Below, piece by piece: positions 14,885 through 20,746 of a DNA stretch of 55,822 nucleotides. The translations under genes and the position numbers were made by a program. The DNA comes from Cyanobacterium sp. T60_A2020_053. GTDB lineage: Bacteria > Cyanobacteriota > Cyanobacteriia > Cyanobacteriales > Cyanobacteriaceae. Where the stretch lies: the NCBI GenBank assembly GCA_015272165.1, contig JACYMF010000065.1, positions 1 to 55,822 on the forward strand. Direction: 5' to 3'. The notes under the pieces are model-generated. The model saw only the letters and a list, made by a program, of their open reading frames with translations. It searched no databases and was not told the DNA's origin. Within the stretch, counting starts at the first letter, position 1; each line of letters opens with the position of its first letter.

Positions 14885-16177
14885 TTATGATACTTTTTGG
14901 GCGACAGTTAAATACTGTGTAACCATTTCTAATAATTGCTCTTTGGTAAATGGTTTTGCTAAGTAATTATTAGCACCAAATTCTTTAATTTTTTCCATAC
15001 TTAATAAATTAGTATTACCACTGACAATGACGATAGGAACATTTTTAAAAGTAGGACTACCTCGCAAAATTTTACATAAACGATTACCATTAATATTAGG
15101 CATTGATAAATCTAATAAAATTAAATTGGGCTTACTAGCAAACAATGTGGGTAAAGATTGCATAGGATTTGGTACAGTTGAAATTTCGTATTGCTCACTT
15201 GCCAAATATTCTTTTATCGTATTTAACATTACTTCGCTATCATCAATACAAACTATTTTATAGTTACTTTTATTGGTACTAATGTTACTAAATACATTTG
15301 ATTTTTTTTCATTGTTAACAGTGTTTAATACTGGATTATATCTGTTAATATCTTCACGATTAACTACAGAAATAGAATCAATTTGAGCTTTTAATATTTG
15401 GGTTGAGGGAATAAAATCATTAGCACGAAGAATAATGGGTAATTTATCTAAAGGAGATTTGGGCGGATAAATAGTAATTACTTGATGTTTAATATAAGGT
15501 AATAGTAATTGTGCTAATTTAGTTTCATCTTGTTTTAGCATTACACTGATACTTCGTAAACTTAAACCTTTCATCATTCCTGCTAATTTTTCTAGCATTT
15601 GTGGAGATAAATTTCCCCCCGATATGGGTTTTTCTAGCAAACTTAAATCCTTGCAAGAAGGGCGCTGGTGAGGTGATTTAATAAAAGGTTGCAGTTTTTG
15701 CCATTGCTTTAATTTATCTACCGAGAATTTAACCAATGTGCTGGTATTCCAACGAGTTTCCATGATAATAGGCATTCTTTCTGGTAAGTCAAAGTTACTA
15801 ATAAAGCGCCCTTCACCGTTGACACAACATAAGTAAGACTCCAAGGCATCTTGGGTTAACTGTCTTAATAAAATAATTGATTGAATGCGACTGAGAGACT
15901 TATAAGTTACTAATTGGTTAATTATCCACAACAAAGGGAATTTTTCTCCGGCGGGAAGACGGGGAATAGAGTTGAAATCAATTTTAGTTAAATTGAGAGA
16001 AAATAAAAGACTTTTGAGGGTATCGAGAGATTGTAGATTATGCTGGGCATGGTGAATTTTACCCTCAATAAAATAAATATCCCACACCACAGAATTATGA
16101 CGAAATTCCCATAAACCTGTTTGTTTGGTTTGCTCATATTTAGTTAAATTTTTAATGGCTATTGAATCTTGATTCAT
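14885..16177 (-). CDS. PatA-like response regulator (DUF4388 + REC)
   Basis: A 430-residue protein with an N-terminal DUF4388/PatA domain (about 1-230) and a C-terminal receiver domain (about 308-425). The receiver has KIVCIDDSEVML (acidic pocket), the phospho-acceptor Asp in LILLDLSMPN, the Thr/Ser in VIVSGNT and the Lys in LAKPFT. PatA-type regulators occur in cyanobacterial Che-like clusters for pili, phototaxis and, in filamentous species, heterocyst patterning. It lies 380 bp downstream of, and on the same strand as, the CheA hybrid kinase and is its likely target. The CheY, CheW and chemoreceptor genes that normally lie between are missing. Confidence 0.88.
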   Translation of the reverse strand: MNQDSIAIKNLTKYEQTKQTGLWEFRHNSVVWDIYFIEGKIHHAQHNLQSLDTLKSLLFSLNLTKIDFNSIPRLPAGEKFPLLWIINQLVTYKSLSRIQSIILLRQLTQDALESYLCCVNGEGRFISNFDLPERMPIIMETRWNTSTLVKFSVDKLKQWQKLQPFIKSPHQRPSCKDLSLLEKPISGGNLSPQMLEKLAGMMKGLSLRSISVMLKQDETKLAQLLLPYIKHQVITIYPPKSPLDKLPIILRANDFIPSTQILKAQIDSISVVNREDINRYNPVLNTVNNEKKSNVFSNISTNKSNYKIVCIDDSEVMLNTIKEYLASEQYEISTVPNPMQSLPTLFASKPNLILLDLSMPNINGNRLCKILRGSPTFKNVPIVIVSGNTNLLSMEKIKEFGANNYLAKPFTKEQLLEMVTQYLTVAQKVS

Positions 16178-16530
16178 AATTTTGTTTTATATTAATTAAA
16201 ATTTATAGAAAATAAGTATATTTGTTATAAATCAAAAAATAACTTTTTTAAGTCTATTCTTGATTAGTTTTAATTTGTGTTGATAATGTATAAAAAATTA
16301 TTGAATAGTAAAGGGTTTAAAATTCCGTCTTTTAAGACGTGGGGAAAGAAACACGGTAGTTTAAGCTATTTTTTTATTTACCTTTCCCCTTACCTTTTGC
16401 CCTTTTTACTCGTTAACATCACCACAAACAATTTACCATTTGATACGATGCATCACTTTTACATTAACAATTTTTTATTATTAGTTAATAATTTATAATA
16501 ATTGATTAATAATTCGTTATAATTACCAAC
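16178..16530. other. AT-rich gap between CheA-type kinase and PatA-like gene
   Basis: About 380 bp without a convincing gene. A frame at 16277-16498 has biased composition and no ribosome-binding site. AATTCCGTCTTTTAAGACGT (16320-16339) can fold into a short hairpin and resembles a sequence near 12205. Confidence 0.35.
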
Positions 16531-16555
16531 CTAATCATTATAATGAAAGATTAAA

Positions 16556-19531
16556 TTATAATTGTGGAATAATTGTGGAGATTCTTGTTAATAATTCTTG
16601 TTCATTATAAGGTTTAGAAAAATAGTCAGTAGCACCTAAATTAAAAGCGATTTGACGATGTTTTTCATTACTGCGAGAGGTTAACATAATAATTGGTAAA
16701 GAATCAAACTCTCGTCTTCCCTTAATTTCTTCTAACACCCCATAACCATCTAAATTAGGCATTTCAATGTCACAAATCACCGCTTCCACTGCCAAACCAC
16801 CTAACAATTTATTAACCGCCTCTTGCCCATCCTTCGCTTCTTCCACCAAATAACCAGCTTTTTCTAAAGTAGAAGCTAAATAACGGCGAATATTGATGGA
16901 ATCATCTACAATCAAAATGCTACGATTAACTGAAGGTGTAAAAGGTAATGAAGAAAATAGTAAATCATTACTATTTTCATAGGTATTTTGAATTAAAGCA
17001 ACTGGATCAACTAAAGGTAAAACTCGACCATCACCGAGAATTAAAGAGCTGATAAACCCTGTTGGTAAAGGGATATAGGATTCAATGGGACGAATAGTCA
17101 CTTCTTGTTCGCCCCAAAAACGCTCTACTTCCAGCGCCCCTAACCCCTCACCTTCACCGACAATAATTACCACCGACTGATTAATAATCGGATTTCCAGC
17201 CATAGGCACAGGTTGAAAAGGTCGATTGAATGATAAAATTTCTGTCAGGGGTATAACCGATAACTCCTGCTGTTGCCACGATACAGTGGAATTATCCCCT
17301 TGATGAATTACCCTTACCTCTCGCACACTGTTAACGGGAATAGCTAAAAATGTCCCACCACTTTCCACAATCATCACTCGCAAAATAGAGGAATTAAAAG
17401 GCACACTGAGAGTAAAAGTTGTACCTTTACCCATGGCAGTTTTCACCTGAATATCTCCGCCAATGTCTTCTAAGTTACTTCGTACTACATCCATACCAAC
17501 ACCACGTCCGGAAAGCTCAGTTACTTTGTCGGCGGTGGTAAAACCGGGGGCAAAAATACTGTTGATGACTTCATTTTGAGACATGAAATCAATTTCCAAA
17601 GATGATTTACCCATCCCCATTAACCGTTGCTTAATTTTCCCTAAATTAATACCCTGCCCATCATCTTCAATGGTAATGATAGTTTTTGTGCCTCGGTTGA
17701 GGGCGCTGATGGTAATATTACCCATAGTTGGTTTACCGTTACTTTGACGAATTTCGGGAGATTCGATACCATGATCAAAAGCATTGCGGATAAGATGAAT
17801 CATGGGAGACTGCAAAGATTCAATCAAAGTGCGATCTAATAAAGTATTATCTCCACTAATTTTGAGGGTAACTTGTTTGCCATATTGTAGGCTCAAATCC
17901 CGAATCAGACGGGGAAAACTTTTTACTAAGTCGCTGAAAGGGCGCATTTGGATGCGTGTCATGTTATTTTGTAGCGCCCGTATAGTTTGATTTAATTCTT
18001 GGATACCTTGATTAATTTCTTGTAAGCCGAGGTTAATATCTTCTTTTACCTCTTTTAACTGTATAATGGTTTCTATTTGCCCTTGGGAAATCAAGTGAAT
18101 ATCAGTATAACGATCCAATTCTAAAGCGTCAAATTGCTCATTTAAACCACCTCTGAGGGCGCTTTGTAAACCTACCATTCCAGCTACAGAAGACTTATCA
18201 TACCAACGGCGTAACTCTTGGTTAGAGTCTTCTAATTTTTCCATCCGTTGATTCATTAATTGAGAAAAGCGCTGTAATTGTTCGAGGCGTAAGTTAACTC
18301 GATTTCGTTCTAAAACTAATTTACCAAATAGGTTGTTTAATTGTTGTAATTGTTGCGCTGAAACTCTCACCGTTTGATATTGATTGGCGGTGACGGGCGC
18401 TTTTTTGGGGTGACGGGCGCTGGTTTCCTCTGCCAATTCCTGTGCTACTTTTTCAATATCAGTAGAAAGATTATTAAAAGCATCACTTAAAGACTCAATA
18501 TCATTATTATCCCAACTCGACTCACCAGCAAACTCCGCAAACTCTGAAGGAATCTCATCAAAAGCAACACTTAAAGACTCAATATCATTACTATCCCAAC
18601 TCGACTCACTAGCCAACTCCGCAAACTCTGAAGGAATCTCATCAAAAGCACCACTTAAAGATGCAACATTATCCAGAGACTGATTAACATTATTTTCAAA
18701 ATCATCAACAGTATTAGTTATTGACTCAGTATCATTATCACTAAATAGAGAAATATCATCACTAGCTGTAAAGAAAAACTCAAAATTATTCGGTAACTTA
18801 TCCACACTGCCACGCATAACTAATGCTTGACAACGGCGCCAAACTTTTAATGCTTCCCCACAAAAATTTTGTAATACTTCCCCTTCCAAATTAAAACTTT
18901 GCATTTGAATGGATAAACAAAGCTCAATAAAAGGACTTAAATCAGCCATTTGCCCACATATCAAAAGTTGTTCGCAAGTGGATTGTAACGCCATCAACAA
19001 CCCAGCGCCCTCCACCGTGTCAATTTCTGTGGCAAAATTATTAATAATTCCCTCGATACCTTCCTCAAATAAAACTAAATCAGCGCTAACATCCTCTTGA
19101 TGTAACAAAAAATTTTCATCTTCTTGCTGTAATTCACCCAAATATTGTCGTAATTCTGTAAAAATAAGCTCAGTAGTAAAAGAAAATTCCGGCGGTATGG
19201 TTTCCAAACCTTGACGGTAACAATCAGCAATGGAGCGCATCTGATCTACCCCTTGTAACAAAAGAGTTTCTACCTGTACATCGATGGTAGTATCATGATA
19301 ACGAACCCTAAGAATCTTAAAAAAATCTTCCAAACCATGGGCAACTTCACTCAACATCATAAAGCCCATCATTCCGGCGCCCCCCTTAACCGAATGAGTA
19401 GCGCGCAAAGCCATATCTAACTTGCTAGAATCAGCACTGGTAGAGCTAATATTTAATATACTTGATTCAACGGCATGGAAGCAATCTTCTGCCTCATCAA
19501 GAAAATTCATTTTTATTTGTTGTTGATCCAT
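16556..19531 (-). CDS. CheA-type hybrid histidine kinase (Hpt-HATPase-CheW-REC)
   Basis: A 991-residue CheA-family hybrid kinase. Domains in order: Hpt (1-110, phospho-His in ATHSVKGGAGMMGF), an acidic linker with a 28-residue tandem repeat (about 315-375, FDEIPSEFAE...SWDSNDIESL), a dimerisation helix region rich in Gln (about 405-560), HATPase (about 560-710; LIRNAFDHGIESPE, IEDDGQGINLG, GRGVGMDVVRSNLEDIGGD), CheW-like domain (about 715-850) and REC (about 868-988; ILIVDDS, CDIEMPNLDG, KPYN). The ATG at 19531 (MDQQQIKMNFLDEAED) is the family start; the longer frame begins in spacer DNA. It probably phosphorylates the PatA-like protein encoded downstream. Input receptors are not local. Confidence 0.92.
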   Translation of the reverse strand: MDQQQIKMNFLDEAEDCFHAVESSILNISSTSADSSKLDMALRATHSVKGGAGMMGFMMLSEVAHGLEDFFKILRVRYHDTTIDVQVETLLLQGVDQMRSIADCYRQGLETIPPEFSFTTELIFTELRQYLGELQQEDENFLLHQEDVSADLVLFEEGIEGIINNFATEIDTVEGAGLLMALQSTCEQLLICGQMADLSPFIELCLSIQMQSFNLEGEVLQNFCGEALKVWRRCQALVMRGSVDKLPNNFEFFFTASDDISLFSDNDTESITNTVDDFENNVNQSLDNVASLSGAFDEIPSEFAELASESSWDSNDIESLSVAFDEIPSEFAEFAGESSWDNNDIESLSDAFNNLSTDIEKVAQELAEETSARHPKKAPVTANQYQTVRVSAQQLQQLNNLFGKLVLERNRVNLRLEQLQRFSQLMNQRMEKLEDSNQELRRWYDKSSVAGMVGLQSALRGGLNEQFDALELDRYTDIHLISQGQIETIIQLKEVKEDINLGLQEINQGIQELNQTIRALQNNMTRIQMRPFSDLVKSFPRLIRDLSLQYGKQVTLKISGDNTLLDRTLIESLQSPMIHLIRNAFDHGIESPEIRQSNGKPTMGNITISALNRGTKTIITIEDDGQGINLGKIKQRLMGMGKSSLEIDFMSQNEVINSIFAPGFTTADKVTELSGRGVGMDVVRSNLEDIGGDIQVKTAMGKGTTFTLSVPFNSSILRVMIVESGGTFLAIPVNSVREVRVIHQGDNSTVSWQQQELSVIPLTEILSFNRPFQPVPMAGNPIINQSVVIIVGEGEGLGALEVERFWGEQEVTIRPIESYIPLPTGFISSLILGDGRVLPLVDPVALIQNTYENSNDLLFSSLPFTPSVNRSILIVDDSINIRRYLASTLEKAGYLVEEAKDGQEAVNKLLGGLAVEAVICDIEMPNLDGYGVLEEIKGRREFDSLPIIMLTSRSNEKHRQIAFNLGATDYFSKPYNEQELLTRISTIIPQL
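18487..18654 (-). repeat. 84-bp tandem repeat inside the CheA-type gene
   Basis: Two 84-bp copies, nearly identical in DNA, encode FDEIPSEFAE-(LA/FA)-xESSWDxNDIESLS. A third partial copy begins SDAFNNLS. The unit is an exact multiple of three, so the linker can lengthen or shorten without a frameshift. Confidence 0.85.
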
Positions 19532-19606
19532 GATTGATTGAGTAAGAGATAGTGAGCAAAAAAAGATTTTCACCTTACCATATTCTATATGGTAATGATT
19601 CCATGA

Positions 19607-19639
19607 AAAAACCCCTAGAGATTATCTAAGGGCTTTTTT
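19607..19639 (-). terminator. terminator of the 24-codon gene
   Basis: On the minus strand CCCTTAGA and TCTAGGGG pair around loop TAATC (8 bp with one G-U) and are followed by TTTTTT. A matching T-run on the other side would also stop plus-strand transcripts. Confidence 0.75.
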
Positions 19640-19702
19640 TATATCTATAATTTCGGATTCTCTAATCAGTTTAGATGTAATTACTGGAAGAAACTTTAAT
19701 AA

Positions 19703-19777
19703 TTAAAGAATAGCCCCAGCGCTTAATTCACCATTGCCGAAAAGAGAACCCAAAGTTTTACTAATACTATCAACCAT
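19703..19777 (-). CDS. 24-residue peptide gene with consensus expression signals
   Basis: Codons read MVDSISKTLGSLFGN, then GELSAGAIL and TAA. The ATG is eight bases after a perfect anti-16S match (AAAGGAGGTGAT, 19783-19794). An in-frame ATG two codons earlier overlaps that Shine-Dalgarno and is less likely. A consensus sigma-70 promoter lies upstream and a terminator downstream, so the unit is complete and independent. The peptide has small residues and alternating hydrophobic positions that could form an amphipathic helix. It has no transmembrane span, signal peptide or Cys. I recognise no family. It could be a regulatory small protein, a structural peptide, or a decoy leader whose point is ribosome binding. 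No other mobile element touches it. Confidence 0.65.
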   Translation of the reverse strand: MVDSISKTLGSLFGNGELSAGAIL

Positions 19778-19830
19778 GGGCATCACCTCCTTTATTCCTG
19801 AACGGTAAGAAATATAATTTCAATAAATCT

Positions 19831-19859
19831 AATATAACAACTGTTTTTTTTTTCGTCAA
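19831..19859 (-). promoter_or_regulatory. consensus sigma-70 promoter of the 24-codon gene
   Basis: -35 TTGACG (19859-19854), 17-bp spacer beginning with ten A residues, -10 TATATT (19836-19831). The predicted start of transcription near 19824 would leave a ~47-nt leader before the ATG. An upstream terminator (19878-19896) isolates it from the Psb35-like gene. Confidence 0.75.
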
Positions 19860-19869
19860 GAGGTTAAAC

Positions 19870-19896
19870 AAAAAAAAGATGAGAAAAAATCTCACC
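19870..19896 (-). terminator. terminator after Psb35-like gene
   Basis: Minus strand GGTGAGATTTTTTCTCATC followed by TTTTTTTT: a short TGAGA/TCTCA stem, a T-rich loop and a run of T. It is about 50 bp after the stop codon. Confidence 0.6.
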
Positions 19897-19943
19897 TCAG
19901 CTATTTCCCAAATTAAAGATTTTATTTTCTTGAAAACTTCCTG

Positions 19944-20168
19944 TTAACGACATTGATTGACACGAGAAGCATCCGTAGTGAAAGCCGGTACACGCACTAA
20001 ATAATCGGTATCATTCCCCGTGAAAGATTGAGCCAAAAGATCGAAAGAATCAGAGTTCCAATTACGTTCGTGAATGGTTTTAGTTTGTTCTCCTCTGAAA
20101 TAGGCTTGAGTGCCGATTAAAGATACCGCTAACCAACCGATTACAAATAATGCTATTAAGATTGCCAT
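19944..20168 (-). CDS. small single-span membrane protein, Psb35-like
   Basis: A 74-residue protein: one N-terminal membrane span (MAILIALFVIGWLAVSLIG), the motif GTQAYFRGEQTKTIHERNW, then a polar tail. This arrangement resembles the cyanobacterial photosystem II assembly factor Psb35, which helps stabilise the CP47 module. The likeness is from memory of the family, so the name is tentative. I use the ATG at 20168, preceded at good distance by AAAGGAG; the frame also has a TTG three codons earlier. A promoter-like TTGCAA-17-TAATAT lies at 20230-20202 and a terminator follows. It is therefore monocistronic and probably well expressed. Confidence 0.7.
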   Translation of the reverse strand: MAILIALFVIGWLAVSLIGTQAYFRGEQTKTIHERNWNSDSFDLLAQSFTGNDTDYLVRVPAFTTDASRVNQCR

Positions 20169-20201
20169 GTTTTTCAAGCTCCTTTGCTTGACGACATTTC
20201 T

Positions 20202-20312: not shown

Positions 20313-20746
20313 GCAGGGCGTTTTCATTCTCAAATTTTTAGTTGAGACAAAGTAGTAAGCAACAAGTAAAAAGTAATAAGTAACAAGTAAAAAGTAATAA
20401 GTTTTGATTCTTTTTGATGAAAAAAGATTTTTCTATATACTTTAACTAATAATTAATCAATTAATATTTGAAATATTGATTTTTTGATTAAAAAAACTCA
20501 ATGCGCGTAGAGTTAAGCTATTAGCAATGAAATTTATTTCATTGTGGGATATGGGTTTAAGCCAATAAATCCCTTTGCAATAAATCTCCATTACGCTAAT
20601 AGCAAAAGCGATGCACTGAGCTTGTCTAAGTGTCAGCTAAAGCGACTAAGAAAAATGCAATTTTTCTTCGATTTTGAAAACCCCCTAGGTAGAAAGGGAG
20701 ATGATTATAATTCATAACTCATAACTCATAATTCATAATTCATAAC
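20313..20746. repeat. dispersed repeats upstream of plsX
   Basis: This 699-bp gap (20178-20876) holds a GCAGGGCGTTTTCATTCTCA repeat (20313) leading into AAGTAAAAAGTAAT runs and TTTTTGATGAAAAAAGATTT. A second element is bounded by GCTATTAGC (20518) and GCTAATAGC (~20597) with an inner TGAAATTTATTTCA palindrome. An AATTCATA heptad run lies at ~20706-20746. Nothing in it looks coding. Confidence 0.55.

Follow-up and report, generated by a model that had tools for sequence, protein, structure and literature searches.

The window analysed here, the whole 55,822-nucleotide stretch of contig JACYMF010000065.1 from Cyanobacterium sp. T60_A2020_053, carries on its minus strand a small unit consisting of a promoter-like site, a Shine-Dalgarno (SD) sequence, a short open reading frame (ORF) and a terminator. 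The original prediction had named these elements without giving a strand, and all of them were found. The predicted promoter (TTGACG-17-TATATT, with a TG preceding the -10 hexamer) was located by pattern scan at 19831-19859. It is followed by a 5' UTR block, CCGTTCAGG (19797-19805), of a CCGTTYAGG type that recurs across the family with exceptions, by the SD sequence AAAGGAGGTGAT (19782-19793), and by a 24-codon ORF, MVDSISKTLGSLFGNGELSAGAIL plus stop (19703-19777; ATG at 19777, stop at 19703), whose frame is kept in relatives. The intrinsic terminator, a hairpin with a T-run at 19606-19640, was missing from the pattern-scan list and was found by folding, with a stem of 14 bp and a loop of 5 nt, set between an A-run and a T-run; the terminator that had been predicted is thus there, but its stem is longer than the 8 bp proposed. 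From promoter to terminator, the transcript would be about 215 nt long.

The predicted separation of the unit from its neighbour also holds, since a terminator-like hairpin with a T-run (19869-19898, minus strand, pattern scan; stem 19898-19876) lies between it and an upstream 77-aa gene. This gene (19944-20177, minus strand) is a membrane-protein-like ORF with no Pfam match, and it flanks the RNA in the congener G002 too. Further off, short tandem-like repeats of the AAGTAATAAGTAAC and AATTCATAACTC types were seen by eye in intergenic DNA at 20355-20412 and 20708-20745. Downstream, on the same strand, lies a gene for a CheA-like hybrid kinase with Hpt, HATPase, CheW and receiver domains; within 14885-19573 this kinase (1005 aa) adjoins a response regulator (430 aa, with a weak DUF4388 match).

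The signals had been described as rare within the window. Promoter-like sites and AGGAGG strings occurred at chance level (14 observed against 12.7 +/- 4.3 expected in 4 kb, and 19 in the window against 16 expected), so that neither is rare alone. The 12-mer AAAGGAGGTGAT occurs 3 times in the 3.36-Mb genome, and the flanks of the other two copies look coding by eye. The SD sequence itself stood as predicted. Its description as the full anti-16S complement leans on the canonical anti-SD sequence, which we presume to apply here, because the 16S 3' end was absent among the three genomic matches of the 12-mer.

Breadth of the family and its relation to ncl0160

A protein search of the kind suggested in the original prediction recovered the gene with its frame from 3 of the 4 other genomes of the genus; the fourth genome is 63% complete. 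The versions of the congeners are 23 aa long, e.g. MVDSSKTLGSLAGQSELSSGAIL. The 5' UTRs of the three have CCGTTCAGGAA.AAAGGAGGTGATGCCC in common, and each has a TTGACA hexamer at a comparable distance from the ATG, with a less distinct -10 element. Three weak protein matches (L005, L006 and L007; E 0.27-0.94) were judged to be chance, because no RBS unit was found there by script, one lay within a 1003-codon frame and one contained a stop. Two more loci, L064 and L065, were removed as unrelated.

When a DNA pattern was searched with at most one mismatch, 92 of the 388 genomes of the class were matched, compared with 12 genomes, counted by hand, for the same pattern read backwards. Among 63 loci fetched in this way, 51 carried the family frame, mostly of 23 codons and of the MIESSKRMGHQVAVSRLCAGAVL type, and the 12 without a family ORF were dropped. 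Named genomes were scanned as well and yielded at least 115 loci, with Nostoc, Microcystis, Planktothrix, Calothrix, Lyngbya and others among the 80 matches listed. Moreover, R1, a covariance model built on the 5' half from 35 sequences, matched 290 of the 388 genomes and 136 of 159 genera, with a single match in each genome except G096, which had two. R2, a model built on the 3' domain, matched 244 of the 388, but under stricter filters all 7 members of the family to which the window belongs went unmatched; the E-values of both models are rough owing to a short calibration. The RBS was mostly retained in distant loci selected with R1, and was weaker in some, such as L237 and L239. In a phylum sample of 117 genomes, all 44 matches fell within the window's class; among those listed without a match, 15 genomes belonged to other classes, and 53 more, unlisted, did not match. 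Family f34, whose genome size of 1.6-3.7 Mb suggests that it is the marine Prochlorococcus/Synechococcus lineage, was not among the R1 matches listed, and the near-complete genomes G161, G196 and G006, of the window's own order, had no R1 match. No match was found in viral contigs with one exact pattern, or in phages and plasmids with one Nostoc-type query. At the level of sequence comparison, selection on the unit is demonstrated by its conservation in the congeners and in the 290 genomes of the class, and the prediction of a stand-alone small gene that has a start, an RBS and a terminator of its own is upheld.

In the common arrangement, the RNA lies between psbD and an OprB/SLH porin gene, with or without a pterin dehydratase (PCD) gene before the latter (families named by Pfam). 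Of 188 loci, 110 had psbD upstream, and the porin or PCD gene was downstream in 119 of the 163 loci with at least 1400 nt of downstream sequence; these counts are not independent, since many of the loci come from Nostocaceae and close relatives. In the window's genus the unit is sited elsewhere, adjoining gltA or the CheA-like gene, and no porin gene was found in the inspected 1.5 kb around it. In another family (L022-L029 and similar loci; 24 loci), the gene ahead of the RNA is not psbD but one for a CbiA-type cobyrinate amidotransferase.

The peptide had been thought to match no known family. However, the gene fits ncl0160, a small RNA of Synechocystis 6803 and Nostoc 7120 described by Brenes-Alvarez et al. 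in 2016 as a conserved RNA first identified in the former (PMC4734099). In the ncl0160 passages of that paper, homologues are reported from 83 of 89 cyanobacterial genomes, in a survey set that omitted the marine Prochlorococcus/Synechococcus lineage, and a mapped transcription start is reported for a homologue. The RNA is described there as probably translated into 23-25 aa, with an RBS always present, mostly ATG and a few GTG starts, and TAA (47), TAG (34) or TGA (2) stops (PMC4734099). The window gene has 24 codons, carries AAAGGAGGTGAT before its start, and belongs to a family spread through most cyanobacteria outside Prochlorococcus/Synechococcus (290 of 388 genomes). A conserved transcript, a frame of 23-25 codons, the RBS, the type of start and the wide spread are therefore common to both, and because of this close fit to the published description (frame length, RBS and breadth), we take the window gene, with little doubt, to be a member of ncl0160. 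Compared with the usual form of the family, the window copy lacks the common 3' domain and the psbD-porin location.

A full-text literature search for 'ncl0160' returned PMC4734099 only, and the passages of that paper on this RNA give no function for it. The window copy and 19 loci had no match in Rfam 15 at the gathering score, nor had 5 loci at E 0.1; the Downstream-peptide and glutamine riboswitch models were among those unmatched. An identity with Yfr6/Downstream-peptide RNA was dropped. That RNA is likewise cyanobacterial, about 240 nt long and provided with a short ORF, but in the sections of the sources concerned it is a marine picocyanobacterial RNA with a 33-aa frame from nt 97 and a 5' UTR motif held in Rfam (PMC1242208, PMC2864571). 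Yfr1 resembles the window family in being a phylum-wide sRNA and differs in its length of 54-57 nt, given for the marine strains of its first description, and in a conserved, presumably unpaired CACUCCUCACACC motif (PMC4734099, in the part dealing with Yfr1). The peptide family had no match to Pfam or NCBIfam models, and the small-protein table for Synechocystis, in the portion of PMC5126843 consulted, contains no entry below 26 aa.

Pairing of the reading frame with the 3' UTR

Folding of the window transcript gave -60 kcal/mol, compared with -43.9 +/- 4.5 for shuffled sequences. The core of this fold is a helix, here called E, whose 5' arm TTTGGGTTCTCT (19743-19754, minus strand) extends from the end of codon 8 to codon 12 and whose 3' arm AGAGAATCCGAAA (19651-19663) lies in the 3' UTR. 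In the window copy the two arms form a duplex of -25.6 kcal/mol, against a mean of -12.9 with swapped partners. For the helix E/F region in 45 diverse loci out of 121, the own duplex averaged -26.3 kcal/mol and the swapped one -18.6 (0 of 5000 permutations), and the own partner beat 90% of the swapped ones in 28 of the 45. In the base-pair test, which covered the 28 of 46 distinct rows with the modal spacing, 96.7% of the cells were paired compared with 89.4% after shuffling (0 of 2000). Double changes occurred at eight pairs; pair 8, for instance, showed them in 11 rows, pair 9 in 9 and pair 14 in 16, and one of the eight had four Watson-Crick types.

Nearer the stop codon, a further helix, B, links the ORF end to the 3' UTR, typically GCCGGGG with TTCCGGC. 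The window version is CTGGGG (19714-19719; family comparison, L013 row) with TTCCAG (19684-19689), the latter within a block, AAAGTTTCTTCCAGTAATTACA (19697-19676), that is alike in the congeners. Across the family, C-G is exchanged for U-A and G-C for A-U. Among the 29 distinct combinations in the 121 loci, 168 of 174 core cells were paired against 155.5 +/- 2.1 expected (0 of 2000 shuffles); anchoring failed for L039, L056, L129 and L184 in this test, and L110, although mis-anchored, was retained in it and in the helix E/F duplex test. All these permutations and shuffles ignore the relatedness of the sequences; nonetheless, the base-pair exchanges turn up repeatedly in rows from separate families. 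Furthermore, the minimum free energy (MFE) of the full-length RNA averaged 11.6 kcal/mol below that of its two parts when these were folded separately, and in 34 of 36 MFE folds 8 nt or more of the coding arm were paired with the 3' UTR.

The comparative evidence thus makes it nearly certain that codons ~8-21 and the 3' UTR together form one long hairpin upstream of the terminator. Within the ncl0160 text of PMC4734099, no long-range covariation, alternative fold or synteny is described, and the ORF-3'UTR hairpin is new relative to that text. A local hairpin at codons 15-20, at first read as a structure and part of model R1, was abandoned, as the long-range helices explain the columns better. 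In the terminator, the base of the stem (CTA..CCGC/GCGG..TAG) is near-invariant and the upper stem covaries freely (alignment A5, columns 43-53 and 110-118); this invariance looks like a sequence-specific constraint on the terminator, although the 3' side of the alignment is biased, because its rows were selected by a pattern on that side.

Translation of the small frame

Not counting L008, L009, L059, L061 and L062, there were 123 non-redundant frames, the window's included, of which 115 had 23 residues, 7 had 24 and one had 25. The frame was broken only in L240 and L059 among 133 anchored ORF arms. Ten ORF spacings differed from 31, and all ten were checked by eye: those of L002, L004, L018, L032 and L054 were anchor artefacts, and L234, L236 and L242 were in frame. 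In contrast, 30 of 119 3' arms were off the modal length by 1, 2, 4 or 5 nt; these distances were set by script and partly checked by eye, and the extremes of 20, 37 and 42, possibly mis-anchored, are outside the 30. The ratio of observed to expected synonymous changes, a check that the original prediction had suggested, was 1.36 in frame versus 0.68 and 0.96 in the other two frames (29 sequences, non-independent pairs), in favour of coding, whereas the entropy by codon position gave no coding signal (p = 0.21). Stop-codon avoidance was too weak for use, with 7.05 expected under site independence. Three relatives (L236, L061 and L062) retain a serine in the SS pair through a TCN codon in place of AGT.

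A conserved structure beside a lost frame had been named as evidence against the gene, and this was found in part. In L225 and L235 (17 aa, family f58) and L227 (16 aa, f42), i.e. three genomes of two families, C-terminal residues are lost and helix B is retained by eye, partly outside the ORF, while L240 (f61) keeps the RNA motif in a different frame. Taken together, the sequence evidence for coding is moderate, and the peptide of 23-24 residues is probably translated. The conserved AGT codons and the LCAGAVL end reflect, at least partly, constraints on the RNA. The view that the locus is simply a 24-codon gene is not borne out; a large share of the conservation belongs to RNA structure.

Accessibility of the start site and possible function

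The 5' side of the coding arm is also complementary to the SD sequence and start codon, and with them it would form a hairpin, A (19740-19793, minus strand; local fold of the window copy, L013, and the family), that would lock both. In the window, AAAGGAGG (19793-19786) pairs with TCTCTTTT (19747-19740), and GCCCA (19781-19777) with TGGGT (19752-19748); in other loci, GCCCATG/CATGGGT is joined by CATC, CACC or CTCC against the SD. Since the coding arm is shared, hairpin A and the long hairpin are mutually exclusive. Hairpin A is suggested by complementarity, a weaker support than that of the long hairpin, and shows no strong covariation because its 5' arm, on the SD side, is nearly invariant. 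Its stability exceeded that of synonymous recodings modestly (mean z -0.84; 14 of 36 below -1). In the codon before ATG/TTG-GGT, the first two bases are variable, but the last is kept as a pyrimidine, pairing with the start-codon G (G-C 26 and G-U 7 of 35).

In silico, the probability that the SD-AUG region is unpaired was 0.47 at full length, 0.26 when the transcript was cut before the 3' arm and 0.23 when the 3' part was shuffled. Accessibility was higher at full length than after the cut in 32 of 36 loci and higher than the shuffled mean in 33 of 36. The four loci without the gain all belong to the window's genus: the window copy itself and the three congeners L002-L004. For the window copy the values were 0.15 at full length and 0.31 after the cut, and its start is not freed by the 3' arm, since the SD is engaged by the 5' UTR instead. 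Gating of the start by the 3' arm is hence a tentative proposal for most relatives, somewhat short of even odds and modelled only in silico; for the window copy, where the fold gives it no backing, it is doubtful.

We propose that hairpin A may form first during transcription and block initiation. The completed 3' UTR would then capture the coding arm and free the very strong ribosome site, translation of the full transcript would yield the peptide of 23-24 residues, and the long hairpin would be reopened by ribosomes as they pass. Our best reading, to which we give a probability of about 0.5, is that the window copy of ncl0160 may be a gated, self-folding small mRNA, serving both as mRNA and as folded RNA.

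An ordinary small mRNA, in which the peptide is the worker and the hairpin merely stabilises or protects the transcript, would account for the conserved start, RBS, stop and frame, for the serine kept through TCN and for the missing rise in start accessibility in the window's genus. It does not account for the SD-complementary coding arm being the very stretch that pairs with the 3' UTR, with accessibility raised in 32 of 36 loci, nor for C-terminal residues that are missing in some genomes while helix B, by eye, persists, and we consider it unlikely. Those shortened ORFs of three genomes and two families would fit better with a structured non-coding RNA that works in trans or acts on a protein; its ORF would be incidental, or a means for ribosomes to control folding. 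The strong conservation of structure by covariation is consistent with such an RNA, and the near-invariant AGTAGTAAA and terminator base CTA..CCGC/GCGG..TAG resemble a sequence-specific constraint; however, the ORF arm stays in frame while the opposite arm carries 1-nt indels, and the synonymous excess is in frame, which makes this explanation rather improbable.

The conserved order psbD - RNA - (PCD) - porin could point to a leader or attenuator of the adjacent porin or pterin dehydratase gene. Nevertheless, a strong terminator ends the RNA, promoter-like sequence was seen by eye ahead of the porin gene in L029, and the unit is conserved beside gltA or the CheA-like gene in the window's genus; because this genus has lost the porin neighbour, porin attenuation was rejected, and we hold the explanation as a whole to be highly improbable. 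Type I toxin mRNAs such as hok and those of the AapA family combine a short ORF and a strong SD with an SD-locking hairpin and long-range pairing, and the window family resembles them in these respects; in hok, metastable SD hairpins thought to form co-transcriptionally in the 5' UTR or ORF are a further likeness. In the aapA3 mRNA, SD-sequestering hairpins of this kind are proposed to prevent premature toxin translation (PMC6733600, in the part concerned). In the window family, in contrast, the coding arm is bound by the 3' UTR, which would release the SD and thus activate rather than silence. Furthermore, the peptide is polar, not strongly hydrophobic and devoid of toxin features by inspection, the gene is single-copy in nearly all matching genomes, and the one Nostoc-type query found no match in phages or plasmids. 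A toxin-antitoxin role is therefore scarcely to be credited.

Returning to the gated mRNA, its widest form would be a phylum-wide switch of reversed logic, in which the coding sequence locks its own start and the finished 3' UTR unlocks it by pairing with the coding sequence. We regard this wide form as unlikely. If it is true, translation of the peptide would report that the transcript is complete or its 3' end intact, and, given the near-perfect complement to 16S rRNA, the switch would respond to free 30S subunits. The ORF-3'UTR hairpin offers a precise structure and mechanism that can be tested in Synechocystis or Nostoc. The family shows that the peptide conservation of a small ORF can largely be RNA conservation, and it does so in a gene that was matched once in almost every hit genome, covers 290 of the 388 genomes sampled and 136 of the 159 genera, and stands outside the Rfam, Pfam and NCBIfam models searched.
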